Source of the DNA: a bacterium
GTDB taxonomy: Bacteria > Planctomycetota > J058 > JAJDCP01
Direction: 5' to 3'
Assembly (NCBI GenBank): GCA_030428695.1
Contig: JAUIEM010000268.1
Location: forward strand, 1-13,954
Length of the DNA: 13,954 bases
The notes under the pieces: generated by a model
The model's database searches: none
Told to the model about the DNA's origin: nothing
What the model saw: the letters and a program-made list of their open reading frames with translations, nothing else
Shown: positions 1 through 13,954 of the stretch, piece after piece
Numbering within the stretch: position 1 is the stretch's first letter
How the letters are laid out: each line of letters opens with the position of its first letter
Made by a program: the position numbers and the translations under genes

Positions 1-999
1 CGGGCACGCCGCCAGCACCTGGTCGCCGACGGCGTGCCCGTGGGTGTCGTTGACCCGCTTGAACAGGTCGATGTCGCACAGACACAGCGACACCGGCTGC
101 TCGTAGCGGCGCCGCGTGTACAGGGCCCGCGCGATCTCGCGGTCGAGGTGCCCGCGGTTGACGAGGCCGGTCAGGGCGTCGCTGCGGGCCTCGGAGCGCA
201 GACGCTCCTCGAGCTGTTTGCGGACCGTGATGTCGCGGCCGATCGCGATCAGGCCGCGGCGCCGTCCGTCCGCGTGGAACAGCGGCGCCTTGATCACCTC
301 GATCACCCGGCGCCCGGCCCCGGTCGCCGGCGTCTCGAGCTCTTCCCGCACCAGCTCCCGCTCGGCGAAGGCCCGCTCGTCGCTCGCCGAGAGCTGGCGC
401 AGGCACTCGGCGAGGGCCGCGGTGGGGTGCGCGTGCACCCCGGGCAGGAGCGCGCCGAGCTCCTCGGCGCTGCGCCCCTCGTAGGGGACGCCCTGCAGCT
501 GGAAGAGCTCGAGCGCGACCGCGTTCGCGCGCGTCCAGCGGCCGTCGGCGTCGACCGACCAGACCGCGTCGGGCAGGGCGGAGAACAGCGCGTGCAGCTC
601 TTCGTTGCGCTCGGCGAGGGCCGCCTGGGAGGTCAGCACGCGGCGCCCGGCCGCCAGCCGGCTGCGCAGCTCCTCGGCCTGGACCGGCTTGCTGAGGAAG
701 TCGTCCGCGCCCGCATCGAGGCCCGCGACGATCGACTGCTTGCCGGTCTTGCTGGTGACGAGGATGGTGTACACCTGCGGCAGCAGCCCCTCCTCCTTGA
801 GCCGCGCGCAGACCTCCAGGCCGGTCATGCCGGGCATCATCCAGTCGAGCAGGGCCAGCTTCGGCGCCTGCTCGCCCCGCAGCAGCTCCCAGGCCTCCGC
901 GCCGTCACGCGCCTGCACGGCGGTGTAGCCCCAGTCGGCGACCAGGGCCGAGAGCAGGAAGCGGGTCGCGCTCGAGTCGTCGGCGACCAGGATCTTCAT
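1..999 (-). CDS. Response regulator with REC, PAS and GGDEF domains (putative diguanylate cyclase), cut by window start
   Basis: I translated 333 residues from the minus strand, from ATG at 999 down to the window edge with no stop. Residues 1-120 form a receiver domain: acidic pair D7/D8, phosphoacceptor D52 (in LLDWMMP), T82 and K104 (in FLSKP). Residues about 133-262 look like a PAS sensor domain ending in IAIGRDITVRKQ, the usual PAS/PAC junction. Residues 273-333 are the first third of a GGDEF domain: DALTGLVNR, then D309 in CDIDLFKRVND, then GHAVGD. The family makes cyclic-di-GMP from two GTP. The GG(D/E)EF signature itself lies about 20 residues beyond the edge, so activity cannot be judged. 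The start is supported by GGAGGAA (1011-1005) five bases upstream and by an ATGA overlap with the stop of the sensor kinase gene. It is probably translationally coupled to that gene and probably receives phosphate from its HPt domain. Confidence 0.93.
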   Translation of the reverse strand, partial: MKILVADDSSATRFLLSALVADWGYTAVQARDGAEAWELLRGEQAPKLALLDWMMPGMTGLEVCARLKEEGLLPQVYTILVTSKTGKQSIVAGLDAGADDFLSKPVQAEELRSRLAAGRRVLTSQAALAERNEELHALFSALPDAVWSVDADGRWTRANAVALELFQLQGVPYEGRSAEELGALLPGVHAHPTAALAECLRQLSASDERAFAERELVREELETPATGAGRRVIEVIKAPLFHADGRRRGLIAIGRDITVRKQLEERLRSEARSDALTGLVNRGHLDREIARALYTRRRYEQPVSLCLCDIDLFKRVNDTHGHAVGDQVLAACP

Positions 1000-3900
1000 C
1001 GCGCTTCCTCCTCGACCCGCGCCCAGTCACAGCGCGCGACCGCGTGCTGCAGCGCGGCGAAGGCGGCGTGCAGCTGCGGAACCAGCGCCGCGCGCGCGGC
1101 GCGGTCGTCGATCACCCGCTCGAGGCCCTGGGCGAGCGCGCGGACCCGCTCGGCCCCGATGTGGGCGGCGTCGCCCTTCAGGGTGTGGACGATCCGCCGC
1201 AGCTCGTCGAGCCGGTCGCCCGCGTCGGCTGCGTCGAGCTCCCGAAGCCGGCCGGCGCCCTCCTCGAGCACCAGGCGCGCCAGCTGGCGCAGGCGCGGCA
1301 CGTCGCCTCCGGTGGTGCCGAGGCCGCGCTCCGGCGCGAACACCGGCTGCTCGTCCGGCGCGGGCTCGGCCCGGGCCGGAGGCCCGACCGCGACGCCGCA
1401 CAGGACGCGGGCCATCGCCTCCGGACGCATCGGCTTGGGGAGAAAGTCGTCCATGCCGGCCGCGAGGTAGCGCTCGCGGTCTTCTTCCCGCGACTTTGCG
1501 GTCATCGCGACGATGCGGGTGCGCGTGGGACCTTCCTCCGCGCGGAAGCGGCGCGTGGTCTCGTAGCCGTCCATCTCGGGCATCTCGATGTCCATCAGCA
1601 CCACATCGTAGCGATGCGATCGCAATTGCTCCAGCGCGTGTCTCCCGTGGCGGGCGATCTCGACCTCGCAGGCCATCTCCTCGAGGTAGCCGAGGGCGAC
1701 CATCAGGTTGATCGGGTTGTCCTCGACCAGCAGCACCTTCAGCCCCAGGCGCGGCAGCAGGGTGGTGCCGCGGCGTGCGGCAGGGGGCGCGCTGGCCAGC
1801 GCGTCTGCGGAGGCTTCGCGGAAGGCGACCTGCAGGCTGAACACCGAGCCCTCGCCGACCGTGCTGCGGACGGCGATGCTTCCTCCCATCATCGCGACCA
1901 GACCCCGGCTGATCGACAGGCCGAGCCCGGTGCCGCCGTGGCGTCGCGTGGTCGAGATGTCGGCCTGGGCGAACTGGTCGAAGATGCGGGAGAGCTGCCC
2001 GGCGGGGATCCCGATCCCGGTATCCCGCACGTCGATCGCGAGCTGCACGACGCTGTCGGTGCGCGCGATGCAGCGGGCGGCGAGCACGACCTCGCCGGCG
2101 TCGGTGAACTTGACCGCGTTGCCGACGAGGTTGACGAGCACCTGGCGCAGGCGGACCGGGTCGGCGAGGACGACGCGCGGCACATCCGCCGCCATCTCGA
2201 CGCGCAGCGCGACCCGCTTGTTCTCCGCGGCGAAGCGCAGCAGCTCGACGATGTCCTCGAACAGGCCGGACAGGTCGACCGGCGTCTCCTCGAGCTCGAG
2301 CCGGCCCGCCTCGATCTTCGAGAAGTCGAGGATGTCGTCGATCACGCGCAGGAGGGCATCCGCAGAGCGCCGGATCGCCTCGACGTAGCCGCTCGGTTTC
2401 TCATCGAGGCCGGCGCGGAGCAGGAGCTCGGCCATGCCGAGCACACCGTGCATCGGCGTGCGGATCTCGTGGCTCATGTGGGCGAGGAAGGTGCTCTTGG
2501 CGTGGGTCGCCTGCTCGGCGGCCTCCTTCGCTTCGCGCAGCTCGCGCTCCATGCGCTTGCTGTCCGTCACGTCGCGGATGGCGACGACGCCGAGCTCGCG
2601 TCCTTCGTCCTGCAAGCGGCGCGTGCGCATCTCCCCGACGTAGCGGCTCTCGTCGCGGCGCAGGCCGACGAACTCGAAGGGCTCTCCCGCGCGGTCGGCG
2701 AGGCGGCTCTCGACCAGCCCGCGGGAAGGCGCGGCGATCAGCTCGAGCAGCGGGCGTCCGACCAGCTCTTCGCGCCGCGCGGCGCAGATGCGGGTGAAGG
2801 CAGGGTTGGCGTCGACGATCTGCCCGTCCTCGAGCACGACGATGCCCTCGAAGGCGGCCTGGGACAGGCGGCGGAAGCGGGCCTCGCTCTTCTCGAGCGC
2901 GCGCGCCTGCTTCTCGAGGAACTCGTTCTCCATGCGCATGCGGTCGCGCTCGGCGCGCGCAGCGATGGCGCGGGCGTTGGTGATCGAGATCGCGGCCTGC
3001 GTCGCGATCAGCCGCACCATCTGCACGCGCTCCGCGGTGAAGCTGCCCGGCGTCAGGTTGTTCTCGAGGTAGACGATGCCGAGCGTGCGGCCCTGGTGGC
3101 TGAGCGGCGCGCACAGGATGGAGCGCGGCCGATGCGCGGTGATGTACGCGCTGTCGGAGAGCTGCCGGTCGCGCATCGCGTCGGCGCAGACGAAGCTCTC
3201 CCCGCTCTTGAACACCAGCCCGACGATGTCCGGCGGGACCAGCTGCCGGCCCTCGAAGGTCGCGTCGACCGCGACCCCGGGCACGGTGCGGATGGTGTCG
3301 AGCTCCCCTGCCGCCTCGATGCGAAGACCGCCCTGCTCGGCGAGCACGAGGCAGGCGCGCTGCGCGCCGGCGTTCTCGAGCACGATCCCGAGCAGGCGCT
3401 CGAGCAGCCGCCCGAGCTCGAGCTCGCCGGACAGGGCCTGCGAGGCCGACAGCACGCTCGGGATGTCGAGCAGCCGCTGGGAGCGGCCCATGCTCCCCGT
3501 CCCGGGCTCCACGGTTGGCTCCCATACCGGCCGCAGCAGGGTCCCGAAGCGCTCCTCGAGCTCCCGCACCTTGGCCTCGGCCCCCCAACGCCGGTACGCG
3601 TCCCGGGCCTCGGCGAGGTAGTGGCCGGTCAGATGTCCCCGGCCGCGGGCCGCGAACATCCGCCCGGCGCGTTCGAAGGCGAGCGCCTCGCACAGCACGT
3701 GATGGCTCGCCCGGGCCTCGTCGATCGCCCGGTCGAAGCCGAGCCGCGCGCGCGCCTCGTCGCCCTCGAGCGCCGCCAGCGAGGCGCCGAGCAGCAGGTG
3801 GAGGCCGCCGAATCGGGCCGGCGCCTGCGCCCGGCAGCGCGCGACCCGGTCGAGGAGGCGCTGGCCGCGGGCGAGGGCCGCGCGGCGCTCGGCGGGGGTG

Positions 3901-6900
3901 TCCCGCCCGATGGCGAGCTCGAGCAGGCAGTCGAAGCCGGGCAGGGAAGGCGGAGTGGAGCTGGACGGCGCGGGCTCCTGGTCGGGGAACAACAGCGCGC
4001 ACAGGCGCTCATCGAAGCCGGGGCGCAGCGAGGGGCTCGCCCGCGCCGGGATGCGGCCGGATGACGTGCGCGGCCCCGCCTCCCCGGGCTCGTCGGGCGC
4101 TCCGACCAGCGTCTCGAGCAGGCGGCGGGCCCGGGCGAGCAGGGCGTCCGGTCGCGGCTGGCCGGCGCGGGTCAGGGCCTGGCGGGCGGCGCGCACGGTG
4201 CGGTCTGTGTCGTCGAGGGGCAGGCCGAGGAAGAGCTGGCGCTCGAGCAGGGCGTTGAGGGCGTAGAAGGCGTACTCGAGGTCTCCCCGGCCCAGGCAGC
4301 GCTCGAAGTCCTCCCGCAGGGGCTCGAGCGTCGCGGTCAGCGGGTCGAGTGCAGCGGGCTTGGCCGATGCGGGGAGCCAGAAGCGCAGGAAGATGTCGAA
4401 CAGGGTCTGCGTCCGGGCGATCTCCCGTGGATCTTCCCCTGCCTCCGCCAGCGCGAGGGCTTTGCGGCCGAGGACCAGCCCGCGCGGCGCGACGACCGAC
4501 AGGGCGTACCACATCAGCACCGTCGGCCGCTCCTTCGCGTCCCTGCAGGCCGCCGCCCGCTCCAGGGCGAGCGAGAGCAGCCCGCCGAGGCGCTCCGGCG
4601 CGGCGCAGAAGGCCGCGGGCAGCAGCGCCGCGAGCAGCCGCACCGGGGCGGCCTGCTCCGGGTCCGGCTCGCGCCGCGCCGGGTCCCACTCCCCCGGCCG
4701 CACCCGCGCGCGCAGCCACAGCGCGCGCCAGCGCTTGCGCCAGGGGCCGCTGGGCGCGGGCGGGTGCAGGCCGAGGAGCGCGAGCCCGGCCTCCCCTTCG
4801 GCGAGCGCCGCGGCGGGGCGTCCGGCCGCGGCGAGCGAGCGCACGCTCAGCTCGTGGGCCCGCAGCTTGTCGAGGGGCGCCCGGGCCCGGGCGGCGAGAG
4901 TGCGGCAGAGGCGCGCCCGCGCGGATTCCTTCCCGCACAGCCCCGCGGCCTCGGCGGCTTCCGCGGCGAGCCGGGCGCAGAGGGCGTTGTCCGCGCCGTC
5001 CCAGCCCCCGTCCCCGAGCAGCCGCAGACCGGCGCCGAACAGGTTGTAGGCGAGCTCGAAGCCGCCGCTCAGCCGCGCCTGCCGGCCGACCTCGAGGTTG
5101 AGCCGGGCGAGCTCGAGCCGTTCCTCCGGCTTCTCGAGCAGGCGCGCCCCGCGGTTGAGGTGTTTGACGACATCGAACAGCCGGTGTCCGGACTCGGTGC
5201 TCTTCAGGGAGGCGCGCCAGTGGCGCCCGAGTCGCAGGTGCAGGGCCGCCCGCCGCGCGCGGGGCAGACGCCGGTAGGACGCCTCCCGCACCCGCTCGTG
5301 GACGAACTTGTAGCCCCCCTCCCCTCGTCCGCGGCGCGGCCGCACGAGCCCTTCCCGCACCGCCTCGGCGAGCACCTGCTCGCAGCTCGCGGCGGTGGAC
5401 ACGTCGGTCAGGAAGGCGAGGGTGCGGGTCCGGAAGCGGGTGCCGACCACCGCCGCGACGGTGACGAGCTCCAGGCACGGGGCGGAGAGTGTGGAGAGCC
5501 GCGCGGCGAGCATGTCGACGACGTTGTCGGTGATCGTGCGTGCGGCGATCGCGGCGAGGTCCCAGGACCAGCGCCCGCGAGAGAAGCGGATCAGCTCCTC
5601 GCCGACGACATCCTGCAGGAACTGGCGCAGGAAGAAGGGGTTGCCCTCGGTCTTCGCGCGGCAGATCTCCGCGAGCGGCCCGAGCCGCCGGGCCGAGCCG
5701 CCGAGGGCGGCGCTGAGCAGCGCGACCAGGTCGCCCTCCCGCAGGGGCCGGGGGACGATGCCAGCGATCGGTGTGCCGTTGTGCTCGAGGAAGTCGAGCA
5801 GCTCGCGGACGGGGTGCCCGGCGCCGACCTCGCGGTCCCGGTAGGCGGCGATGATCAGCAACCGGTCGGCGAGGCCGTCGACCGCGAGCCGCTCGAGCAT
5901 CTGCAGGGAGAGCGGATCGGCCGCGTGCAGGTCGTCGAGGGCGAGCACGCACGGCTGGCCGGGCCCGGAGAAGCCGGCGATGCAGTGCAGGAAGGCGCGG
6001 TGGAAGCGGCTCTGCGACTCGCTCGGGCTCAGCTCCGGCACCTCCGGCTGGGGACCGAGCAGCTCGACGATCTCGGGCAGGGCCTGGGCGACGACGGCCG
6101 CGTTCCGACCGAGCCGGGCGCGCAGCCGGGCGCGGACGGTCTCCCGCCGCGCCTCCGGGCCCGCCCCCAGCCGCACGATCAGCTTCTGCAGCGCCTCGAT
6201 CCAGACCGCGAGCGGCAGCCGGCGGTGGGGATCGCAGGTCGCGCAGGCGAACAGCCCGCCGGCGCTCTCGACCGGTCCGCGCAGGCCGTTGAGCAGCGCG
6301 GTCTTGCCGATCCCGAGGTAGCCGCGCACCGTCACGACCTCGACGCCGCCCTCGCACACCCGGGCGAACGCGAGCTGCAGGGCGTCGAGCTCGGCCTCGC
6401 GCCCGAACAGACGCTCGGGGAAGGTGAACCGCGGCGAGGTGTCGTCGCGGCCGAGGGGGAAGCGCGGGACCGCCCGCTGCTCGCGCCAGCGCCAGGCGCA
6501 CTCGAGCAGGTCGCGCTTCAGCCCTGCCGCGGTCTGGTAGCGCAGGGCGGGGTCCTTCTCGAGCAGCTTGGCGATCAGCGCGGACAGGCCCTCGGGGAGG
6601 CCCGGGTTGAGCTCGTGCGGGGGCGGCGGGACGACCGCGAGGTGGCTGTGGACGAGCTTGCGCGGGTCCGCCTCCTCGAAGGGCAGCCGTCCGGTCAGGA
6701 GCTGGTAGCAGGTCGCGCCGAGGGCGTACAGGTCGGAGCGGCGGTCGACCGCGTGCTCCGTGCGCCCGGTCTGCTCCGGGGAGATGTACGCGAGCTCGCC
6801 GTCGAGCTCGCCCGGCAGCGCGAGCTCGTCGTCCTCGGCGAGGGTGGCGCCGCCGAAGCCGAGCAGGGTGAGCTCTTCGCTCTCCGGGTCCCAGGCCAGG

Positions 6901-7328
6901 GCCGCGGGCTGCAGGTCGCGGTGCAGGCTGCCGCGCGCGTGCAGCGCTTCGAGCAGGTCGCAGGTCGCGGTCGCGATCGCGAAGAAGGCGGGCAGCTCGT
7001 CGAGCGGCAGCTGCAGGCTCAGGGGCCGGCCGCGGAAGCCCTCGAGGACGAGCACCGGGCCCGCGTCGCTCGCGAGCAGGTCGAGGACCCGGGGGACGCC
7101 CTCGAGCGCGAGCCGGGCGAGGACCGCGTGCTCCCGTCGCAACCGCGCCTCGGCCTCGGGTCCCGGACCGTCCGGGAAGCACAGGCACACCGCGCGGTTG
7201 TCGGCGTGGCTGCGGGCCCGGACCAGGGTCGGCGTCAGGGTCTCGAGGAGCTGGTAGCCCGGCACCCGGCGCGCGGCGCGCGGCGTGCCCACGGCGGGGT
7301 CGGACGGCGGCTCAGTCCGGTTCCGCAA
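996..7328 (-). CDS. Giant hybrid sensor histidine kinase: pseudokinase-AAA-helical-GAF-PAS-HisKA-HATPase-REC-HPt
   Basis: A 2110-residue signalling protein with no evident membrane segment, so probably cytoplasmic. In order: a Ser/Thr-kinase-like domain (about 24-280; HRD 136-138 and SPE 183-185 present, DFG replaced by GFG at 157-159); a predicted AAA-type ATPase (about 305-600; Walker A GYLGIGKT 336-343, Walker B ALDD 463-466); a long helical, probably TPR-like region (about 650-1260) with a Pro/Ser-rich linker near 1075-1130; GAF (about 1295-1455); PAS (about 1477-1590); a coiled-coil-like stretch; HisKA with phosphoacceptor H1620 in SHEIRTP; HATPase_c with N1737, DTGIGI 1769-1774 and GGTGLGL 1798-1804; REC with E1869/D1870, D1913, T1943 and K1965; HPt with H2048 in HTLKGD. 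The front resembles the STK-AAA-GAF-HK class of cyanobacteria and myxobacteria. The start is uncertain: TTG at 7328 overlaps cutA by 17 bases and has GAAGAG five bases upstream, whereas GTG at 7292 lies 19 bases after cutA without a clear Shine-Dalgarno. No in-frame ATG precedes the kinase domain. Confidence 0.95.
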   Translation of the reverse strand: MRNRTEPPSDPAVGTPRAARRVPGYQLLETLTPTLVRARSHADNRAVCLCFPDGPGPEAEARLRREHAVLARLALEGVPRVLDLLASDAGPVLVLEGFRGRPLSLQLPLDELPAFFAIATATCDLLEALHARGSLHRDLQPAALAWDPESEELTLLGFGGATLAEDDELALPGELDGELAYISPEQTGRTEHAVDRRSDLYALGATCYQLLTGRLPFEEADPRKLVHSHLAVVPPPPHELNPGLPEGLSALIAKLLEKDPALRYQTAAGLKRDLLECAWRWREQRAVPRFPLGRDDTSPRFTFPERLFGREAELDALQLAFARVCEGGVEVVTVRGYLGIGKTALLNGLRGPVESAGGLFACATCDPHRRLPLAVWIEALQKLIVRLGAGPEARRETVRARLRARLGRNAAVVAQALPEIVELLGPQPEVPELSPSESQSRFHRAFLHCIAGFSGPGQPCVLALDDLHAADPLSLQMLERLAVDGLADRLLIIAAYRDREVGAGHPVRELLDFLEHNGTPIAGIVPRPLREGDLVALLSAALGGSARRLGPLAEICRAKTEGNPFFLRQFLQDVVGEELIRFSRGRWSWDLAAIAARTITDNVVDMLAARLSTLSAPCLELVTVAAVVGTRFRTRTLAFLTDVSTAASCEQVLAEAVREGLVRPRRGRGEGGYKFVHERVREASYRRLPRARRAALHLRLGRHWRASLKSTESGHRLFDVVKHLNRGARLLEKPEERLELARLNLEVGRQARLSGGFELAYNLFGAGLRLLGDGGWDGADNALCARLAAEAAEAAGLCGKESARARLCRTLAARARAPLDKLRAHELSVRSLAAAGRPAAALAEGEAGLALLGLHPPAPSGPWRKRWRALWLRARVRPGEWDPARREPDPEQAAPVRLLAALLPAAFCAAPERLGGLLSLALERAAACRDAKERPTVLMWYALSVVAPRGLVLGRKALALAEAGEDPREIARTQTLFDIFLRFWLPASAKPAALDPLTATLEPLREDFERCLGRGDLEYAFYALNALLERQLFLGLPLDDTDRTVRAARQALTRAGQPRPDALLARARRLLETLVGAPDEPGEAGPRTSSGRIPARASPSLRPGFDERLCALLFPDQEPAPSSSTPPSLPGFDCLLELAIGRDTPAERRAALARGQRLLDRVARCRAQAPARFGGLHLLLGASLAALEGDEARARLGFDRAIDEARASHHVLCEALAFERAGRMFAARGRGHLTGHYLAEARDAYRRWGAEAKVRELEERFGTLLRPVWEPTVEPGTGSMGRSQRLLDIPSVLSASQALSGELELGRLLERLLGIVLENAGAQRACLVLAEQGGLRIEAAGELDTIRTVPGVAVDATFEGRQLVPPDIVGLVFKSGESFVCADAMRDRQLSDSAYITAHRPRSILCAPLSHQGRTLGIVYLENNLTPGSFTAERVQMVRLIATQAAISITNARAIAARAERDRMRMENEFLEKQARALEKSEARFRRLSQAAFEGIVVLEDGQIVDANPAFTRICAARREELVGRPLLELIAAPSRGLVESRLADRAGEPFEFVGLRRDESRYVGEMRTRRLQDEGRELGVVAIRDVTDSKRMERELREAKEAAEQATHAKSTFLAHMSHEIRTPMHGVLGMAELLLRAGLDEKPSGYVEAIRRSADALLRVIDDILDFSKIEAGRLELEETPVDLSGLFEDIVELLRFAAENKRVALRVEMAADVPRVVLADPVRLRQVLVNLVGNAVKFTDAGEVVLAARCIARTDSVVQLAIDVRDTGIGIPAGQLSRIFDQFAQADISTTRRHGGTGLGLSISRGLVAMMGGSIAVRSTVGEGSVFSLQVAFREASADALASAPPAARRGTTLLPRLGLKVLLVEDNPINLMVALGYLEEMACEVEIARHGRHALEQLRSHRYDVVLMDIEMPEMDGYETTRRFRAEEGPTRTRIVAMTAKSREEDRERYLAAGMDDFLPKPMRPEAMARVLCGVAVGPPARAEPAPDEQPVFAPERGLGTTGGDVPRLRQLARLVLEEGAGRLRELDAADAGDRLDELRRIVHTLKGDAAHIGAERVRALAQGLERVIDDRAARAALVPQLHAAFAALQHAVARCDWARVEEEAR

Positions 7329-7641
7329 CGCAGCTCTTCTTCACCCACGCGACGTACCCCTCGAGGCTCGCGCCGACGTCGACCGGCAGCGCGACGATCT
7401 CGGGCAGGTCGTAGGGGTGTTGGTCGACGATCGCCGCGCGCAGCGCGGGGAGGCGCTCCGCGGAGGTCTTGATCAGCAGCGTGATCTCGTCGTCCTCACA
7501 CAGCTTCCCCTCCCAGCTGTACACGCTGCGCACCCCCGGCAGCAGATTGACGCAGGCCGCCAGGCGCTGCTCGACCAGGGAGCGCGCGAGCGTCCGGGCC
7601 GTGTCGTCGGCGGCGGGGCAGTTGCACAGGACCACGAACAT
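7312..7641 (-). CDS. cutA: CutA1-like divalent-cation tolerance protein
   Basis: A 109-residue cytoplasmic protein that fits the CutA1 family in length and motifs. Visible hallmarks are CVNLLPGVRSVYSWEGK (residues 30-46), ITLLIKTS (53-60), HPYDLPEIVALPV (75-87) and the Tyr-x-x-Trp-Val near the end. CutA1 proteins form very stable trimers with a ferredoxin-like fold. They were first linked to copper tolerance, but their exact role is unsettled. I chose ATG at 7641 over an in-frame start nine codons upstream because GAGGAGGAG (7654-7646) sits just ahead of it and the extra residues (MRGPTRRRR) do not belong to the family. The stop lies inside the start region of the giant sensor kinase, so the two are probably co-transcribed. 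The link between a CutA protein and a phosphorelay is unexplained. Family assignment is secure; function is inferred from the family. Confidence 0.93.
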   Translation of the reverse strand: MFVVLCNCPAADDTARTLARSLVEQRLAACVNLLPGVRSVYSWEGKLCEDDEITLLIKTSAERLPALRAAIVDQHPYDLPEIVALPVDVGASLEGYVAWVKKSCVAEPD

Positions 7642-7689
7642 CCGTCTCCTCCTCGTCGGGCCGCGCATCGGACGGGCCGCGATTGCGAC

Positions 7690-7717
7690 TTGTGAAAGCG
7701 CGTCGCTTTCCTATCAT
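7690..7717 (+). promoter_or_regulatory. Candidate sigma70-type promoter for the AAA gene
   Basis: TTGTGA (7690-7695) and TATCAT (7712-7717) are separated by 16 bases. They match the sigma70 consensus at four and five of six positions and lie about 40 bases ahead of the GTG start at 7759. Read on the other strand, the same AT-rich island gives TATGAT (7718-7713), a possible -10 for cutA, but no convincing -35 accompanies it. It is the only clear AT-rich patch in the divergent region. Prediction by eye only. Confidence 0.45.
7694..7710. promoter_or_regulatory. Perfect 7-3-7 dyad within the divergent promoter (possible operator)
   Basis: GAAAGCG, CGT, CGCTTTC: seven-base arms that pair perfectly around a three-base centre. 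The dyad fills most of the spacer between the candidate -35 and -10 of the AAA gene and lies in the predicted cutA leader. A protein bound here could control both divergent units. It could alternatively act as a leader hairpin in the cutA mRNA. I do not recognise the motif as belonging to a named regulator. Confidence 0.45.
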
Positions 7718-7758
7718 ACCTGCTCGCCGAGACAGTGCGCACGTAGCGGAGCCAGGCC

Positions 7759-9684
7759 GTGAAGGACAGACGCGTCGAAGTCGCCGCGCTCGCCCGCGAG
7801 GGACCGAGCTCCGAAGCCCCGATCTGCCGGGTCGGCGAGGGCATGTTGGCCAAGCTGCGCAGCGCACCGGGCGACCTCGTCGAGATCCGCGGGCGCCGCT
7901 CGGCGGCCGCCAAGCTCGTGCTGGTCCAGGGGCTGGGGGACGGCGTCTGCGAGGTCGACCCGCAGCGCCTGGCCCAGGCCGGCATCGAAGGGGAAGCCTC
8001 GGTGCGGCTGGCGGCGACCCCGCGGCGCTACGCGCGGCGGGTGATCCTCAGCCCCGACACCGCCGTCCTCGACATGATCGCGCTCGAAGACGGCGACCCT
8101 TCGCTCGTCGGCCTGCCGGTCGTGCGCGGCTCGACGCTGCACAACCCGGTGACCGGCAAGACCGCCTTCGTGATCCGCGAGACCTTCCCCTCCGGCGTCG
8201 TGTGCCTCGGGCCGAACACCCACTACTCGATCATCAAGCCGGGCAAGGCCGAGAAGAGCCGCCAGGTCTCCAGCCTCGACCTCGGGGGCATGCGCCACGA
8301 GATCCACCGGCTGCGCGACCTGTTCGAGCTCGCGCTGCGCAAGCCCGAGGTGTTCGACAACCTCGGCCTGGACGGGCCGAAGGTGTTCCTGCTCAGCGGA
8401 CCGGCCGGCGCGGGCAAGAGCGTGCTGGTCGAGGCCCTCGCGTTCGAGGTCAAGGCCTCGAAGCTCGTGCTCTCCTTCCCGCGCATCGCGATGGCGACCA
8501 AGGAGCGCCCGGCCAGCGTCTTCGCCCGCACCCTCGAGGAGGCGAAGCGCAACCTGCCCGCCCTGCTCGTGCTCGAGGACGTCGACGCCGACCTCGGGGG
8601 CGAGGCCGTCGAGGCGGCCTGCTCCCTGCTCGCAGAGGTGCGGTCCCGGGCGCGGATGGCGGCGGTGCTGACCTGCCGGGCGCCGGAGAAGCTGTCGCGG
8701 GCGCTCGCGGGCCAGTGCGAGGACGTCACCGCCCTGCCGCTGCCCGATCTCGCCGAGCGGGAGGAGATCCTGCGGGTGGCCGCCCGCCACATCGCGATGC
8801 AGGACGTCGCCTTCGACGACATCGCGGCGGCGACCTCGGGCGCGGTCGCCGGCGACCTGATCGGGCTGCTCAAGGAGGCCGTGCTGGTCGCCTACCAGGA
8901 GGCGGTCGACGAGGCGCGCCCCGAGACCAGCCTGGTGCTCTCCTCCGAGCACTTCGCGGTCGCCCTGCGACGCTTCGTGCCGAGCGGCCGCGAGCTCGCG
9001 CCGTCCTGCCTGTCCCTCCCGGGAGGCTTCGCCGCCGTCCTGGCCGACGGCGCGGTGCTCGACCACGCCCGCAACCTGCTGCTCAACCTCGACGCGCCGC
9101 GGCCCCGGGGGGTCCTGCTCAGCGGGCCGGCGGGGTCCGGCAAGTCGACCTTCGTCGCCGGGCTGGCCTTCGAGCTGATCGGGCCCCTCCCCTGCCTCAA
9201 GGCCTCCCCCCTCGTTCCCTTCGAGGACGGGCTGCGGGCCCTCAAACAGCGCCTGGCGCGCGGCGAGGGGGGGATGTTCTGCATCGAGGACGCCGACCGC
9301 CTCGGGCGCGACGAGCGGGAGCTCCTGCGCGCCTTCCTGTTCGCCTCCGACCCGCGCTGGCAGGCGCTGGTGACGGCGCGCGAGCCGGCCGCTCTCGGTG
9401 GGCTGCTCGCGCCGGGCTGTCTGGAAGCCGAGCTCGCCCTCGCGCCGCCGGATGCGGGCCAACGCGAGCGCTTCTTCTCCCAGCTCTTCGCCGGGCTCGA
9501 GCTCAAGCGCGGCCTGAGCCACGGCTCGATGGCGGGCGCGACGGAGGGCCTCTGGCCCGAACAGCTCGCCCGGGTCGCGAAGAAGGCGGTCGAGCTGTGT
9601 CTGGCGGAGGCGGGCGAGGACCTCCCCCGGCTCGGCAACAAGACCTTCAAGGCGGCGCTCGCGGCGGTGACCGGGAACCCGTGA
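7759..9684 (+). CDS. Cdc48/p97-like tandem AAA protein with altered catalytic residues
   Basis: A 641-residue soluble protein laid out like Cdc48/p97/VAT. Residues about 5-90 resemble the double-psi barrel N subdomain (GDLVEIRGRRSAAAKL) and about 92-165 the second N subdomain (GLPVVRGSTL). AAA module D1 runs about 171-410 and D2 about 415-640. Walker A is GPAGAGKS (214-221) in D1 and GPAGSGKS (456-463) in D2. Each Walker B ends Glu-Asp, not Asp-Glu (E273/D274; E510/D511). The sensor-1 Asn is replaced by C306 and A540, and the arginine-finger positions by Q319/D322 and C554/A557. Canonical family members are hexameric unfoldases that extract proteins from complexes. This one may hydrolyse ATP poorly or act as a scaffold. 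The start is GTG at 7759 with a modest CGGAG upstream. It stands alone, divergent from cutA and ended by the hairpin at 9730-9756. The family call is firm at the fold level; the substrate is unknown. Confidence 0.85.
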   Translation: MKDRRVEVAALAREGPSSEAPICRVGEGMLAKLRSAPGDLVEIRGRRSAAAKLVLVQGLGDGVCEVDPQRLAQAGIEGEASVRLAATPRRYARRVILSPDTAVLDMIALEDGDPSLVGLPVVRGSTLHNPVTGKTAFVIRETFPSGVVCLGPNTHYSIIKPGKAEKSRQVSSLDLGGMRHEIHRLRDLFELALRKPEVFDNLGLDGPKVFLLSGPAGAGKSVLVEALAFEVKASKLVLSFPRIAMATKERPASVFARTLEEAKRNLPALLVLEDVDADLGGEAVEAACSLLAEVRSRARMAAVLTCRAPEKLSRALAGQCEDVTALPLPDLAEREEILRVAARHIAMQDVAFDDIAAATSGAVAGDLIGLLKEAVLVAYQEAVDEARPETSLVLSSEHFAVALRRFVPSGRELAPSCLSLPGGFAAVLADGAVLDHARNLLLNLDAPRPRGVLLSGPAGSGKSTFVAGLAFELIGPLPCLKASPLVPFEDGLRALKQRLARGEGGMFCIEDADRLGRDERELLRAFLFASDPRWQALVTAREPAALGGLLAPGCLEAELALAPPDAGQRERFFSQLFAGLELKRGLSHGSMAGATEGLWPEQLARVAKKAVELCLAEAGEDLPRLGNKTFKAALAAVTGNP

Positions 9685-9729
9685 GCGACGGCCGCCCCGC
9701 CGTCCACAGGAGACAGTGCGCCATCGAGA

Positions 9730-9763
9730 AGACGACCGCCGCTGAGGCGGTCGTCTCTTGTGT
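9730..9763 (+). terminator. Intrinsic terminator-like hairpin between convergent genes
   Basis: AGACGACCGCC (9730-9740), loop GCTGA, GGCGGTCGTCT (9746-9756): a perfect 11-bp stem followed by CTTGTGTT on the plus strand. It lies 45 bases after the AAA gene stop and 21 bases beyond the stop of the convergent metalloprotease gene, so it may end transcripts from both sides. The U-tract is mediocre on the plus strand and absent on the minus strand. Confidence 0.75.
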
Positions 9764-9777
9764 TCGCTGCGTGCGCT

Positions 9778-11568
9778 CTACGCGCGCTGCGTGGCGGGCC
9801 GGCGCCGGCGCGCGAGCACCAGCAGGCCGACACCGAGCAGCCAGGTCCAGGCGGCGCCGTCGGGAGCGCTGCCCATCGCGCAGCCGCCACCCCCGCCACC
9901 GCCCCCGCCCTCAGCCGAGGCGCCCGGTGCGGGGTTGCTCGGGGCTGGGTTCGGCGTCGGCGTCGGCGGAGGCGGCGCTCCGTCCGACGTGAAGGAGAAG
10001 CCGTTGAAGGTCGCGTCCTGCCCATTCGGGTGGATCACGGTGACCAGGACCGAGCCTTGGGCATGGCTCGGCGTCTGGGTGACCAGACGGGTCGGGGAAG
10101 CGAGCTGGACGTTCTCGGCGAGGGTGTCTCCGTACAAGACCTTGCAGCCGTCGACAAAGTCCTCGCCGTCGATGAAGACCTGGGTCCCCCCGCCGCCCGG
10201 GCCGTCGCTCGGGCTCAGGCCGGTGATCGTCGGGCCGGGACGCATCACCTCGAAGCCGCCGGTCAGGATCGCGAGGTTGTCACCCCCCGCGTTCCGCACG
10301 ATCACCGATCGCAGGCCGGGCATCGCGAACGGCTGCACGTACAGCGTCGCGATCACCTGGTTGCCGTTGAACAGGGCGTTGTTGACCTGCACGTCGCCGT
10401 TGTCGTTGCCGACCTCGAGGATGCTCCCGGGGAACAGTCCGTTGCCCCCGAACGAGACCGTGATGGTCTTGCCGAGGTTGCCGACCCCCATGTTGCCCTG
10501 GTTGACGCTGGTCAGGTTGTACTTCTGCCCGGACGGATCGGGCAGCGCGACCAGCGCGCCGAGGTCGAGGATCTCGCCGGCGGCGAGGAAGATGTCGCTC
10601 GGGCTGCTGTTGCCCCCGACGAAGGTGGTCGTGAAGCTCGTCGTCGGGTTGGAGATCTGGAACATGTTCGCGTCGGTCACCGGCCCGTCCAGAGGCTCGA
10701 CGTAGACCTCGTAGGTCCCGAAGGCGAGGCCGCTGATCGCGAAGCTCCCGTCCGCTGCGGTCAGGGTGGACGAGGCCGGGATCCCGTTCTGGTCGATCGC
10801 GACGACGTGGCCTGCGACGATCGGGTTGCCGCCGACCGTCCACGAACCGGTCAGGCTTCCGGTGCCGCTCGCGACCGGATACAGCGAGCGCGCGCCGGCG
10901 ATGTCGTCGGCCTGCAGCGAGCGCTGGGTCTTCGAGTTCGAGAAGGTGAAGGGCACCATCGTGCAACCCCACACCGGGCTGTGGTCGAGCCCGAGCAGGT
11001 GTCCGATCTCGTGGGTGGCGACGGCCTGGATGTCGAAGGTCGAGCCCCCGGGGTTGGCGGTCGGCGTCGAGAAGGTGAAGTCGCGGCCGTTGAAGATGAT
11101 GTCCGCGTCGACGATCTGGTTGCCGACGAACTCGACCGGCGTGATCGCGACCAGCCCGCTGCTGGCCGTGCCGAAGAAGCCGGTCTCGTTGTTCTCGTCG
11201 AAGGTGATCATGTGGACGCCGTTGTCGGTGTAGTCGGACGACGGCCGATCGCGGTCGGGGCCGAGATCCTCGTAGAAGCTGATCCCGGAGCCGGTGACCT
11301 CCTCCCAGGCGGCGAAGGCGAGCCGGATCGCGGCGTCCTCGCTCTCGTCGGGGATATCGTCCGAGCCGGCGCGCCGGATCACGTACGGGATGAGCGGGGC
11401 GTTGCCCGCCCAGGTCATCCCGCCCGCTTCCTGGTTGAGGCGGACGAAAGCGTAGGTCGTGTACGAGCACAACGTCACGCCGAGGAGCGCGACCGCCAGA
11501 CCGGACACGATGAGCGCGCGCCTGGTCACGGTCACGGCAGGGCAGCGCAGCTCGGATTCACAGGACAT
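9778..11568 (-). CDS. Secreted matrixin-type zinc metalloprotease with IPT/TIG-like module and MYXO-CTERM-like tail
   Basis: A 596-residue exported protease. Residues 16-36 form a signal peptide or anchor with a twin arginine at 16-17 and a possible cleavage after TTYA (37-40). The catalytic domain (about 52-232) carries the metzincin zinc motif HEIGHLLGLDH (186-196) and a likely Met-turn at M204 (CTMVPF). No propeptide or cysteine switch separates signal and catalytic domain. Residues about 236-300 look like a carboxypeptidase-regulatory beta domain (AADGSFAISGLAFGTYEVYV). Residues about 445-527 look like an IPT/TIG immunoglobulin-like domain (PTITGLSPSDGPGGGGTQV). Then come a Pro/Thr linker (531-548), nine glycines (554-562), C563, a hydrophobic stretch (571-586) and RRRR: the layout of MYXO-CTERM surface-sorting tails. 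ATG at 11568 was chosen because GGAGGG lies six bases upstream and the signal peptide follows; 92 further codons upstream lack protein-like character. It is probably the last gene of a three-gene operon. Confidence 0.9.
   Translation of the reverse strand: MSCESELRCPAVTVTRRALIVSGLAVALLGVTLCSYTTYAFVRLNQEAGGMTWAGNAPLIPYVIRRAGSDDIPDESEDAAIRLAFAAWEEVTGSGISFYEDLGPDRDRPSSDYTDNGVHMITFDENNETGFFGTASSGLVAITPVEFVGNQIVDADIIFNGRDFTFSTPTANPGGSTFDIQAVATHEIGHLLGLDHSPVWGCTMVPFTFSNSKTQRSLQADDIAGARSLYPVASGTGSLTGSWTVGGNPIVAGHVVAIDQNGIPASSTLTAADGSFAISGLAFGTYEVYVEPLDGPVTDANMFQISNPTTSFTTTFVGGNSSPSDIFLAAGEILDLGALVALPDPSGQKYNLTSVNQGNMGVGNLGKTITVSFGGNGLFPGSILEVGNDNGDVQVNNALFNGNQVIATLYVQPFAMPGLRSVIVRNAGGDNLAILTGGFEVMRPGPTITGLSPSDGPGGGGTQVFIDGEDFVDGCKVLYGDTLAENVQLASPTRLVTQTPSHAQGSVLVTVIHPNGQDATFNGFSFTSDGAPPPPTPTPNPAPSNPAPGASAEGGGGGGGGGCAMGSAPDGAAWTWLLGVGLLVLARRRRPATQRA
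9884..9910. repeat. C-rich/G-rich tract encoding nine glycines
   Basis: The plus strand is a run of CCG, CCA and CCC triplets. The coding (minus) strand reads as G-runs of two to five bases split by single C or T. It encodes the poly-Gly segment of the metalloprotease tail. Mixed codons limit simple slippage, but several close G-runs could form a G-quadruplex in the coding strand or mRNA. Confidence 0.6.
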
Positions 11569-11650
11569 CGGCAACCCTCCGGTGCTCCGGACCTGGAAGA
11601 CAACTGCTCGGCTTCGCGGGCCCTCGCCGCCGCTGGCTGCGCCGCTCGTC

Positions 11651-11675
11651 GCTCGCATAGAGCGCGTGTGCGAGC
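11651..11675. repeat. Inverted repeat between the exported-protein gene and the metalloprotease gene
   Basis: GCTCGCA (11651-11657) and TGCGAGC (11669-11675) are perfect complementary arms around an 11-base loop. It sits in the 172-base gap ahead of the metalloprotease start. There is no T-run on either side, so it is not a typical terminator; an mRNA processing or stability element is possible. I saw no convincing promoter in the same gap. Confidence 0.4.
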
Positions 11676-11740
11676 TCCTCGCTCCTTGCCATCGACGACG
11701 ATCCCTCACGGAGAACGAGCATGTGTTCCCTTCCCGTCCC

Positions 11741-12319
11741 TTAGCGGCCTTCTCCAGCGGTCTTCCTGGCGCGGTAGTGTTCGCGGACGTAGTCGAGCAG
11801 CTCCGGCTCGGGGGTCTCGTCCATCTCTCCCTCGCGATGCTCACCCGTCATCTCGTCGACCAGCTCGAGGCCGGCCATCTCGCGGCGGGCGCGTCCGTCT
11901 TTCAGGCTGTACTTGCCTTGCGCGAGGCCGACGCAGAACCGGGCCGGCGCGTCGGGGGCCTGCTCGACCGCGACGAGCACGCGCTCGCCGAGCTCGAAGC
12001 TCGACGTCCCGTGGATCATCAGTTTGCGCTCCCCGAGCTGGCCGCCCCAGCGCCGGAAGGTGAAGATCCCGTCGGCGAACTGGTACGTCTCACCGATCTT
12101 CTCGACCTCGGAGCTGAAGAAGCACTCTTCGACGCGAAGGGAGATCTCGGTGTAGATCACGCCGTCCTCGGTCTCGCCGGCTTCGATGGCGACGACTTCG
12201 CCGAGCACCGTCGTGCTCGCCCGCTCGAGGACCTGGTCGGCGCTCATCGCGACCACGGTGGTCGCCAGGGCCGGACCGGCGCAGACAGTCAGGAGGAGGC
12301 AGAGGCCGATTCGTTGCAT
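11741..12319 (-). CDS. Exported protein of unknown function, beta-rich, with GERVLV/VGLAQGKY motifs
   Basis: A 192-residue protein. Residues 1-19 form a clear Sec signal peptide (MQRIGLCLLLTVCAGPALA) with a likely cleavage before T20. The mature part opens with a predicted strand pattern (TTVLGEVVAIEAGETEDGVIYTEISLRVEECF), then a Trp-Gly-Gly segment (91-93), IHGTSSFELGERVLVAVE (102-119) and FCVGLAQGKYSL (128-139). The tail (about 150-192) is charged and probably helical. This order (early strands, Gly-Gly pair, 'F..GE.VLV', 'VG..QGKY') recalls uncharacterised exported proteins that I associate with metalloprotease neighbours in deltaproteobacteria; that resemblance is from memory and I know no assigned function. 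The ATG is preceded by GGAG at seven bases. The gene starts 14 bases after the stop of the HAMP-like membrane protein and ends 172 bases before the metalloprotease, so a role in export, folding or control of that protease is an inference from position only. Confidence 0.8.
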   Translation of the reverse strand: MQRIGLCLLLTVCAGPALATTVVAMSADQVLERASTTVLGEVVAIEAGETEDGVIYTEISLRVEECFFSSEVEKIGETYQFADGIFTFRRWGGQLGERKLMIHGTSSFELGERVLVAVEQAPDAPARFCVGLAQGKYSLKDGRARREMAGLELVDEMTGEHREGEMDETPEPELLDYVREHYRARKTAGEGR

Positions 12320-12333
12320 CGCTTGCTCCGGTG

Positions 12334-12756
12334 TCAGTCGCTGCTGGACGCGAGGGTGGTGACGAGCTCGTTGACCTCGTCCGCGAGCGGCAGCAGCTGG
12401 TCGCCCTGGCGGAGCCGGACGGAGCCGGACACGCGCCCCTCTTCACGGTAGGTCGTGTGGACCTCGCGGATCGAGGTCTGGATGCGGTACGCGGCTCCGA
12501 GCAGCCGGTGCCAGTGGACGACGCAGTAGATCGCCAGCCCGATCGATCCGAAGCTGAGCAGGGTCGTCACGATGCCGAGCATGTACAGGCTGCCGAGGCC
12601 GATCTGCCCGGAGTCGCCGGTCATCAGGGCGGGGAAGGCAGTGTAGGCGAAGAAGCCGAACAGGATCAGGTTGACCGTGGCGAGGGCCCAGATCAGCTTG
12701 TAGCCGAGCAGGACGCTGCGGTCGGCGACGAAGGCCTTGCGGCGGTTCGGGGTCAC
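12334..12756 (-). CDS. Two-helix membrane protein with a C-terminal HAMP-like domain and no output domain
   Basis: A 140-residue inner-membrane protein. Transmembrane helices are predicted at about 19-42 (YKLIWALATVNLILFGFFAY) and 53-80 (IGLGSLYMLGIVTTLLSFGSIGLAIYCVV). They are followed at 81-137 by a HAMP-like module: HRLLGAAYRIQTSIREV as the first amphipathic helix, RVSGSVRLRQGDQLLPLADEVNELVTTL as the connector and second helix. The Pro that usually opens HAMP helix 1 is Ala here. HAMP domains normally pass signals from membrane helices to a kinase, cyclase or chemoreceptor tail, but this protein stops right after the HAMP. The start is GTG at 12756, supported by GAGGAG about seven bases upstream; the open frame continues to 13494 but that extension is Arg/Pro-rich and not protein-like. 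It heads the operon with the exported protein and metalloprotease. It may be a signalling adaptor or a structural membrane protein. Confidence 0.82.
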   Translation of the reverse strand: MTPNRRKAFVADRSVLLGYKLIWALATVNLILFGFFAYTAFPALMTGDSGQIGLGSLYMLGIVTTLLSFGSIGLAIYCVVHWHRLLGAAYRIQTSIREVHTTYREEGRVSGSVRLRQGDQLLPLADEVNELVTTLASSSD

Positions 12757-13097
12757 GGGTGTGCTCCTCGGTAGGACCCTGACGCGGACGGGCGGAGCTG
12801 GATGCATGCAACCAGGTCGCTGCGCACACGGCGGAGGGTGTTTCATGCTAGCAGATAGTAGCGTGCAACGGGTGGGGCGGCTAGACCTATTTGCAGTTGA
12901 GGGACCCGAAGCGATCCTCGCGCCGGAACGAATGACAACGACATACGAGACAGTGGGACGCCGCCGGGCCGCATACGAAACCCAATGCGACGAATGGTGC
13001 GTCCAGCTTCCCGTTTTTGGTCGCCCAACGCCGCCGGTCAGTCCGCGTACCACCGCCGTCCCTTTCGGACCCGAGCGGGCCGCAGCAGCCGCTGTCG

Positions 13098-13111
13098 CTC
13101 GTGCGCACGAG
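13098..13111. promoter_or_regulatory. Perfect 14-base palindrome upstream of the YbjN-like gene (possible operator)
   Basis: CTCGTGCGCACGAG reads identically on both strands with no central gap. It ends nine bases before the candidate -35 at 13121, where a dimeric activator would typically bind. The regulator is unknown. Chance palindromes of this length are rare in a 444-base gap but not impossible in GC-rich DNA. Confidence 0.45.
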
Positions 13112-13120
13112 ATTTCGCCG

Positions 13121-13149
13121 TTGCTCCCGCGTGCCGGACGCGCTATGAA
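13121..13149 (+). promoter_or_regulatory. Candidate promoter for the YbjN-like gene
   Basis: TTGCTC (13121-13126), 17-base spacer, TATGAA (13144-13149), about 50 bases ahead of the ATG at 13201. The matches to sigma70 consensus are three and four of six, so the case rests on ideal spacing and position. The gene also has a good Shine-Dalgarno, AAGGAG, five bases before its ATG. Confidence 0.4.
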
Positions 13150-13200
13150 TAGCTTCCACAACCGCAGACCGTTCAGGCCTCGACCTGTGAAGGAGTTGTC

Positions 13201-13683
13201 ATGAGTTTGATGCGCCGGATGTCCCTCGAACGCTTCGAGGAAGTGATGGCGGAGCTGGGCGTGCAGTTCACCCCGCTCGGCGAAAACCACTACGCCGCCA
13301 AGCACGGTTCGACCGTGGTCGAGATCAAGGCCGAGCCCTGGAAGGCCCGGGACCTGCTGGTCCAGGTGTCTGCGACCGTGGTCGAGGGAGGCGCCTTCTC
13401 CGAGGAGCTCGGCAGAAAGCTCCTCGACCTCAACGTCAGCCATCCGTTCGGAAGCTTCGGCCTCGACGCTGCGGGCAATGTGATCTTCCGTCACTGCCTG
13501 GTCGGCTCCACGCTCGACGTCAAGGAGCTGAAGACGTCCTTCCAGTCGGTCGCCGAGACCGCCGATGAGTGGGATGACAAGCTGGTCGAGCTGGCGGGCG
13601 GGACCCGCGCGAGCGAATCCGAGCGCTGGGCCTCCGTCGAGTGGAAGGGTGGCGAAGCCCCCGCCGAAAGTGCCGACAGCTGA
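13201..13683 (+). CDS. YbjN-like (type III secretion chaperone-fold) protein
   Basis: A 160-residue soluble protein with no signal peptide or membrane helix. It has the sequence flow of YbjN/TY-chaperone-like domains: an N-terminal helix (SLERFEEVMAELGV), a beta sheet (YAAKHGSTVVEIKAEPW, DLLVQVSATVVEG), then the most typical part, KLLDLNVSHPFGSFGLDAAGNVIFRHCLVGSTLD (about 73-106), and a last helix ending in ADEWDDKLVEL (121-131). The C-terminal 25 residues are Ser/Glu-rich and probably disordered. The fold resembles CesT-type secretion chaperones; bacterial YbjN proteins are loosely tied to stress and motility, but no biochemical role is settled. The ATG is well supported by AAGGAG at five bases. 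A short gap (48 bases) to the next plus-strand gene suggests an operon. The family call rests on motif resemblance. Confidence 0.75.
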   Translation: MSLMRRMSLERFEEVMAELGVQFTPLGENHYAAKHGSTVVEIKAEPWKARDLLVQVSATVVEGGAFSEELGRKLLDLNVSHPFGSFGLDAAGNVIFRHCLVGSTLDVKELKTSFQSVAETADEWDDKLVELAGGTRASESERWASVEWKGGEAPAESADS

Positions 13684-13731
13684 TCCGTCGCACCTCTAGC
13701 TGCCCGACAGCCTTCGACCAGGAGCTCCCCG

Positions 13732-13954
13732 ATGAGCCCGTTTGATTCACCCGGATGCCCGCTGCGGACCCGGATGCCGCAGATCTCTCCCTCGCGACGC
13801 GACCCCGGTGCATCGACCGGGATGAGAGTCCTGAGCATCCTGTTGCTCGTCGTGTTCTGCGCCGCGCCGTCCATCGCCTGTGAACAACCCGCCCTCGAGA
13901 CCATCACCGCCGCCGAGATCCAGGCCCATGTCGACGTCCTGGCAGGACCTGCGA
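13732..13954 (+). CDS. Exported protein, probable M28-type peptidase lipoprotein, 5' end only
   Basis: Seventy-four residues are visible before the window ends. A hydrophobic signal segment (MRVLSILLLVVFCAAPSIA, residues 31-49) is followed by C50, a plausible though non-ideal lipobox (SIAC). Next comes ALETITAAEIQAHVDVLAGPA. The pattern 'ITA..I..HV..LA' just after a signal peptide is how many M28 (aminopeptidase Y/S-like) zinc peptidases begin, but no catalytic residue is in view, so this is an inference. ATG at 13732 has GGAG seven bases upstream, yet it gives an unusual 30-residue polar extension before the signal peptide. ATG at 13822 would give a textbook signal peptide but lacks a clear ribosome-binding site. 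Confidence 0.6.
   Translation, partial: MSPFDSPGCPLRTRMPQISPSRRDPGASTGMRVLSILLLVVFCAAPSIACEQPALETITAAEIQAHVDVLAGPA

Follow-up and report, generated by a model that had tools for sequence, protein, structure and literature searches.

A very rare bacterial Cdc48 variant in which both ATP sites are altered in similar ways

Proteins of the Cdc48/p97/VAT type (TIGR01243) consist of an N-domain followed by two AAA modules, D1 and D2. In p97, sensor 1 reads Ala346-Thr347-Asn348, and the arginine fingers are R359 and R362 (PMC12529919). Several relatives are reported to carry one altered module. In actinobacterial Cpa, D1 is described as having neither the sensor Asn nor the arginine finger (PMC6017811); Pex1/Pex6 is described as a double-ring heterohexamer whose D1 ring is inactive and in which Pex6 D1 binds ATP and cannot hydrolyze it (PMC10518020). 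A different type of nucleotide site is reported for STAND NTPases (Apaf-1 and the NLRs, with NB-ARC or NACHT modules). In NLRP3, an Arg at sensor 1 lies within a TTR motif, and the R351T mutation cuts ATPase activity >10-fold (PMC9633759). Apaf-1 carries GKS, LLILDDVWDSW and TTR, and NOD1 and NALP1 carry TAR; according to the same source, the small helical subdomain of STAND proteins bears a “GxP” signature, the proline of which touches adenine (PMC2323615). Here, we describe a Cdc48-like gene on a planctomycete contig (JAUIEM010000268.1, assembly GCA_030428695.1), of which we analyzed positions 1 to 13,954 (“the window”). Its product is a real, very rare Cdc48 variant in which both ATP sites are altered in similar ways.

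The gene occupies positions 7759..9684 on the + strand (as do all features within it), has a GTG start, and encodes a 641-amino-acid protein, P0003, delimited from the open reading frame, the homologue alignment and a structural model. The first lobe of the N-domain spans residues 1–88 (7759..8022), and the second lobe together with the N-D1 linker spans residues 89–172 (8023..8274); D1 (residues 173–410; 8275..8988) and D2 (residues 421–641; 9019..9681) follow. TIGR01243 aligns with residues 22–386 (E 1.5e-40), spanning much of the N-domain and D1. PF00004 scores 53.5 bits, with its best stretch at residues 211–327 in D1, and a canonical D1 profile gives best-domain scores of 110–122 bits for D1. 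D2 matches the canonical profiles weakly and with poor scores; modelled alone from three sequences (predicted local distance difference test score 72), it is a classical AAA module, with matches to FtsH, p97, PAN and proteasome ATPases among the 50 listed. The closest structural match to the predicted structure of the whole protein is p97. By descent, this is a real Cdc48-type protein, with an N-domain and then two AAA modules. The features that mark Cdc48/p97 as a functional family are lacking: TIGR01243 reaches 139.3 bits, below its curated cut-off of 802.65; PF02359 (CDC48_N), which is present in five of six control Cdc48s (the sixth, P0014, having no first lobe), is neither among the 17 families found at E 0.001 nor among the 25 of 30 matches listed; no module is canonical; and there is no aromatic-Gly pore loop.

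Both P-loops are intact, and the protein can probably still bind ATP. Walker A reads GPAGAGKS in D1 (residues 214–221; 8398..8421) and GPAGSGKS in D2 (residues 456–463; 9124..9147), and an earlier note on this DNA was right that the lysines, K220 and K462, are retained. It was also right that the Walker B acidic pair reads Glu-Asp in both modules, at Glu273-Asp274 (8575..8580) and Glu510-Asp511 (9286..9291). Its register further along needed correction. Profiles built on 25 canonical Cdc48s place the sensor-1 Asn column on Arg307 of D1 (8677..8679) in all three known members of the family, i.e., P0003 and its homologues P0004 and P0005. For D2, one of the three members aligned through this column, which falls on R542 of P0005, equivalent to Arg541 of the window protein (9379..9381). 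The residues that the note had named as sensor 1, C306 and A540, are one position off and are ruled out by the profiles and the p97 numbering: because p97 reads Ala346-Thr347-Asn348, C306 occupies the Thr position and not that of the sensor Asn. Sensor 1 is thus changed in both modules, as the note had stated, but it has been replaced by Arg and not simply lost.

Two further observations bear on the Arg in D2. The spacing from sensor 1 to the second finger is 14 residues in all 138 modules of the control Cdc48s described below. P0004 and P0005 have the same spacing in D2, which speaks for an Arg at this position. In addition, strand beta-4 ends at residues 306 and 540 in the structural model, with Arg as the next residue, and the model of D2 alone ends the strand at the same residue. 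From this evidence, sensor 1 is Arg, settled for D1 and likely for D2. The fingers are absent from both modules, as had been claimed, although not at all of the residues named. In p97, R359 and R362 are 11 and 14 residues past Asn348. The equivalent region of D1 is residues 317–319 (8707..8715), where the window protein has a gap at the first finger and the homologues have Asp, and the second finger is position 319 (Gln, Leu and Leu across the three members). In D2, the region is residues 551–554 (9409..9420), with Ala, Ala and Gly across the three members at the first finger position, 551, and Cys554 at the second. Q319 and C554 are therefore second-finger positions; D322 and A557, which had also been read as fingers, represent a later, non-finger position and are excluded by the same profiles and numbering. 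On these alignments, no module has Asp-Glu, a sensor-1 Asn and arginine fingers together.

The family is very small. Among 5.8 billion proteins searched, the only close homologues were P0004 (69% identity) and P0005 (68%), after which the score of the next match falls from 910 to 187 bits; this main search gave 182 matches, of which 120 were listed. Because it scored only the ~8000 candidates with the most words in common, as did the search with a P0005 segment described below, more divergent members may have escaped notice. P0004 and P0005 share 576 of 654 residues with one another, and both can be aligned with the window protein from residue 1. Residues 1–172 as a query returned the same three proteins only, from 2898 candidates, and residues 226–412 of P0005 returned the three members plus two others at 29–32% identity that are named or matched as Cdc48. 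Searching genome contigs with P0003 found no relatives; an alignment-based contig search gave one match, at 33% to N-domain residues 16–99, in a betaproteobacterial metagenome-assembled genome (L001) that has eight CDC48-profile matches, all below cut-off, and was left out of the analysis. No relatives were found among viral contigs. Plasmid records matched in 56 cases, of which the 20 listed have 24.5–28.5% identity. Among the papers that our searches of an open-licence library returned, no title or abstract opening concerned such a Cdc48 protein.

The homologues also speak to the explanation that the gene is decaying or its sequence is in error. D2 is the least conserved part of the protein and scores poorly against canonical profiles, and the altered residues taken alone are no more conserved than their module background, all of which speaks for decay. 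Yet the reading frame is intact, with a third-codon-position GC of 0.96 (GC content is 72%), and Walker A is intact in both modules. Moreover, the earlier note had proposed looking for homologues with canonical residues at the changed sites, and both homologues, located on other contigs, instead agree with the window protein at Walker B, at sensor 1 and at the second finger of D2. Since both carry the changed residue set, the changes are unlikely to stem from a sequencing error or from recent decay, and we give this explanation almost no credence.

The changes can be set against the natural variation among Cdc48s. We used a single profile to compare 138 modules from 69 control proteins, of which 67 came from the 120 matches listed in the main search (P0006–P0073 without P0069) and two from the search with the P0005 segment (P0123 and P0124), leaving out P0069 and P0074–P0122 (mostly FtsH); in this profile, the family's own D2 modules fell short of the sensor column. 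Sensor 1 is Asn in 92 control modules, Ala in 28, Ser in 9, Gly in 6, Gln in 3, and Arg in none. Judged by Walker B, sensor 1 and the two fingers, D1 is canonical in 27 of the 69 proteins and degenerate in 42. The degenerate D1 modules, which fall within P0025–P0073 and include several from proteins named actinobacterial, have Thr, Asn, Gln or Ser followed by Asp at Walker B, no finger Arg, and Ala, Gly, Gln or Ser at sensor 1, never Arg; D2 is canonical in all 42 proteins. Overall, D2 is canonical in 65 of 69 controls. The four that deviate (P0011, P0023, P0068 and P0071) have Ser at sensor 1 but retain both fingers and a canonical D1, and three of them have Gln or Asp in place of the catalytic Glu, i.e., the reverse pattern, with D2 weakened. 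No control deviates in both modules (0/69). Because 42 of 69 controls show it, a degenerate D1 is ordinary in bacterial Cdc48s, whereas the change in D2, and the combination of the two, are unusual. The suggestion that the combined loss is unusual thus holds for D2 and for the combination, but not for D1 alone.

If the fingers are gone, one possibility is an active homo-hexamer in which some other trans residue has taken their place, such as the basic position 314 in D1. This position lies between the sensor-1 and finger sites and is basic in all three members (Arg, Lys and Lys); in D2, the residue immediately ahead of the first finger site is Arg in P0004 and P0005. However, position 314 aligns with a canonical Pro and precedes the second finger site by five residues, the window protein does not have the D2 Arg, and position 545 varies among Ala, Arg and Lys across the three members. 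We consider an enzyme of this kind very improbable. The earlier note had offered an alternative trans residue as one possibility, and none is required, because the Arg at sensor 1 offers a cis arginine. Once sensor 1 is read as Arg, a cis-arginine site replaces lost catalysis as the most likely interpretation.

Such a site has a parallel in STAND NTPases. The family motifs are GKS, hhhhED and TCR in D1, and GKS, hhhhED and TAR in D2, with the T-x-R Arg directly after beta-4 (less certainly so in D2). As in published descriptions of STAND proteins, there is a sensor-1 Arg in T-x-R, a GKS P-loop and no fingers, and, as described for Apaf-1, the second Walker B acid is Asp. PF25199 (nSTAND_NTPase5) scores 42.6 bits on P0003 against a cut-off of 34, with R307 as the last residue of its best stretch; in six controls, it scores 28.2 or 27.8 or is absent among the matches listed. 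This match gives weak support for STAND likeness, because ordinary Cdc48s also match STAND models and because PF00004 outscores PF25199 on P0003 (53.5 versus 42.6 bits). We dropped STAND Pfam matches as proof, since the controls match STAND models too. Descent from STAND proteins was likewise not adopted: D2 alone still matches AAA proteins among the 50 fold matches listed, which contain no STAND entry, an absence that excludes nothing. STAND likeness would be a case of convergence, since both modules are AAA by fold, D2 alone included. We tentatively propose, at somewhat less than even probability, that a Cdc48 motor was converted by matching substitutions in both modules into a cis-arginine switch of the STAND kind, convergently, with the N-domain, previously used to bind cofactors, as its output surface.

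A number of observations weigh against this proposal. The first Walker B acid, at the Mg position, is Glu, whereas STAND proteins have Asp. The Gly-Leu-Trp-Pro that opens the lid helix of D2 (residues 597–600; 9547..9558), where canonical Cdc48s have G-x-S-G-A, is invariant in all three members, but it is GxxP and not GxP, and it occurs in D2 only. A winged helix that includes a sensing His follows the module in STAND proteins, and none is evident in the predicted secondary structure of the window protein. STAND models match ordinary Cdc48s weakly too, with PF25199 listed for many, and both modules resemble AAA folds. With respect to the register, the window protein departs in D2 from the sensor-1-to-second-finger spacing of 14, having 13 (the D1 spacing is 12), a MAFFT alignment has a gap in the D2 sensor column in disagreement with Arg541, and the D2 assignment rests on one of three profile alignments together with the spacing and the strand ends. 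P0004 and P0005, unlike the window protein, have the Arg near the first D2 finger site described above. Lastly, the changes in D1, taken alone, are comparable to those of a Cpa-type D1.

The case for selection is also mixed. The motif positions of D2 are invariant at 9 of 10 sites, compared with 108 of 221 in D2 as a whole (hypergeometric P = 0.008), but once Walker A is left out, the figure is 4 of 5 (P = 0.17, not significant); in D1, 8 of 9 motif positions are invariant (P = 0.15, not significant). Motif conservation without Walker A is not significant in either module, and the tests cover three related protein sequences. Because the D2 significance vanishes without Walker A, conservation of nucleotide binding appears better supported than selection on each odd residue. 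The earlier note had read the parallel changes as selection and not decay. Its observation is partly confirmed and its interpretation partly supported; selection is plausible, given that both homologues share the changes and given the D2 result, even though the latter comes mainly from Walker A.

Changes are also found where a threading ATPase would grip its substrate. In the pore-loop-1 region of D1 (residues 241–253, PRIAMATKERPAS; 8479..8517), alignments show that the canonical Tyr-Gly is replaced by Lys/His-Glu. The corresponding segment of D2 is five residues shorter than in 69/69 controls and has no aromatic-Gly motif; the distance from Walker A to Walker B in this module is 48, compared with 53 in every one of those controls. 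The stretch from Walker B to sensor 1, which includes pore loop 2, is 31 in D2, compared with 43–46 in the controls; in D1, it is 34–35, compared with 36–46. These pore-stretch changes are partly common to the degenerate D1 modules of controls, but not to control D2 modules.

The ATPase modules are not the most constrained part of the protein. The second lobe of the N-domain (residues 89–158) is invariant at 68 of 70 positions across the three sequences, and residues 159–172 are invariant at 13 of 14, making residues 89–172 the most conserved segment of the protein. Identity between P0003 and its two homologues is 75–78% in the first N-lobe, 97% in the second, 69–71% in D1, and 52–58% in D2. 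We compared this gradient with that of control pairs having 60–80% overall identity (590 found, 545 usable; the P0004–P0005 pair is outside this range). The second lobe was more conserved than D2 in only 5 of the 545, by ≤0.044, whereas the difference in the two P0003 pairs is 0.39 and 0.45. The tightest constraint is therefore on the N-domain and not on the ATPase, i.e., the usual gradient is inverted.

This gradient also fits the strongest rival of a switch, a pseudo-ATPase scaffold in which a permanently bound nucleotide serves folding or assembly, the sensor-1 Arg holds ATP, and the N-domain is displayed with no hydrolysis. P-loops that are conserved while catalytic residues are rebuilt, and a second N-lobe that is nearly frozen while D2 is the least conserved part, are what such a protein might show; there are also described precedents, both in CED-4, reported to be constitutively ATP-bound with no apparent hydrolysis (PMC7583971), and in Pex6 D1 (PMC10518020). 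On the other hand, a pure scaffold need not keep either the second Walker B Asp or the sensor-1 Arg, both of which are kept in all three members, and the sensor-1 Arg is reported to promote hydrolysis in NLRP3 (PMC9633759). The earlier note had offered a nucleotide-locked scaffold on the premise of a lost sensor 1, and the idea survives the replacement by Arg; we regard it as possible but distinctly less probable than the cis-arginine switch. The most likely explanation, which we hold at even chances, is that a Cdc48 has ceased to be a threading motor and become a nucleotide-gated switch, or a scaffold, that acts through its N-domain.

In this explanation, the steps would be as follows. A double-module Cdc48 would have lost its threading function; the pore-loop segments with which it gripped substrate are altered or shortened. 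Both sites have been rebuilt alike, each with a GKS P-loop, a Glu-Asp Walker B, a sensor-1 Arg, and no trans fingers. By analogy with self-contained STAND-type switches, an Arg of the same subunit may read the gamma-phosphate. ATP binding, with slow or no hydrolysis, would then most likely determine how the D1-D2 body is shaped or assembled, and this state would present the N-domain, with the near-frozen second N-lobe probably carrying a partner-binding surface.

A subunit with P-loops but no fingers could also be one that receives the fingers of a neighbor. In this hetero-ring explanation, a canonical Cdc48 of the same cell would supply both the fingers and the threading force, as in the Pex1/Pex6 heterohexamer with its inactive D1 ring (PMC10518020). 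However, the gene stands alone, and there is no second Cdc48 among the genes examined in the window, and we consider a hetero-ring improbable. The cutA gene diverges 90 bases upstream, and a gene for a matrixin-type metalloprotease converges downstream.

As to the neighbors themselves, the upstream gene (7312–7668, − strand) encodes a CutA1-family protein, divergent from the Cdc48-like gene. The downstream gene (9778–11844, − strand) encodes an M10 matrixin-type metalloprotease with an IPT/TIG domain; its Gly-rich tail, with a hydrophobic stretch and a run of Arg residues, resembles a myxosortase signal, and it matches NF041905, a myxosortase-dependent family, below cut-off, a match that taken alone might hint at a myxobacterium-like host, although the contig is assigned to Planctomycetota. 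Elsewhere in the window are a 2110-amino-acid open reading frame (996–7328, − strand) with Ser/Thr kinase, AAA_16, GAF, PAS, HisKA, HATPase, response regulator and Hpt domains; a response regulator-PAS-GGDEF protein (1–999, − strand) that is cut by the window end; and a chaperone-type protein of the YbjN/CesT-like TY-Chap1 kind (13201–13683, + strand).

The degenerate Cdc48-type proteins considered here, Cpa, Pex1/Pex6 and NSF, keep one working module; in NSF, the other module remains active. BCS1 has a Glu-Asp Walker B, an order for which our literature search gave no confirmation, and retains its sensor Asn and arginine finger. Compared with these and with Cdc48/p97/VAT, the window protein has the N-D1-D2 order and fold, the P-loops, the GG motif ahead of D1, and the AAA lid helices of the latter, but the Walker B, sensor 1, fingers and pore-loop segments are changed in both of its modules. 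It resembles Cpa in its degenerate D1 but differs in D2, which is described as canonical in Cpa and here lacks Asp-Glu, Asn and fingers. It resembles Pex1/Pex6 and the D2 of NSF in that a Cdc48-type module is, as reported for those proteins, reduced to a structural or nucleotide-binding role (PMC5070193, PMC10518020); there, the other module is active, whereas in the window protein the two modules have both changed, with similar residues as the outcome. Unlike STAND proteins, it consists of two AAA-type modules and a Cdc48 N-domain. The annotation “CDC48 ATPase” can mislead about function. If the proposed switch is correct, it would show that a ring motor may become a switch or scaffold without losing its architecture, and this family offers a gauge of how far a cis sensor-1 Arg can stand in for trans arginine fingers.
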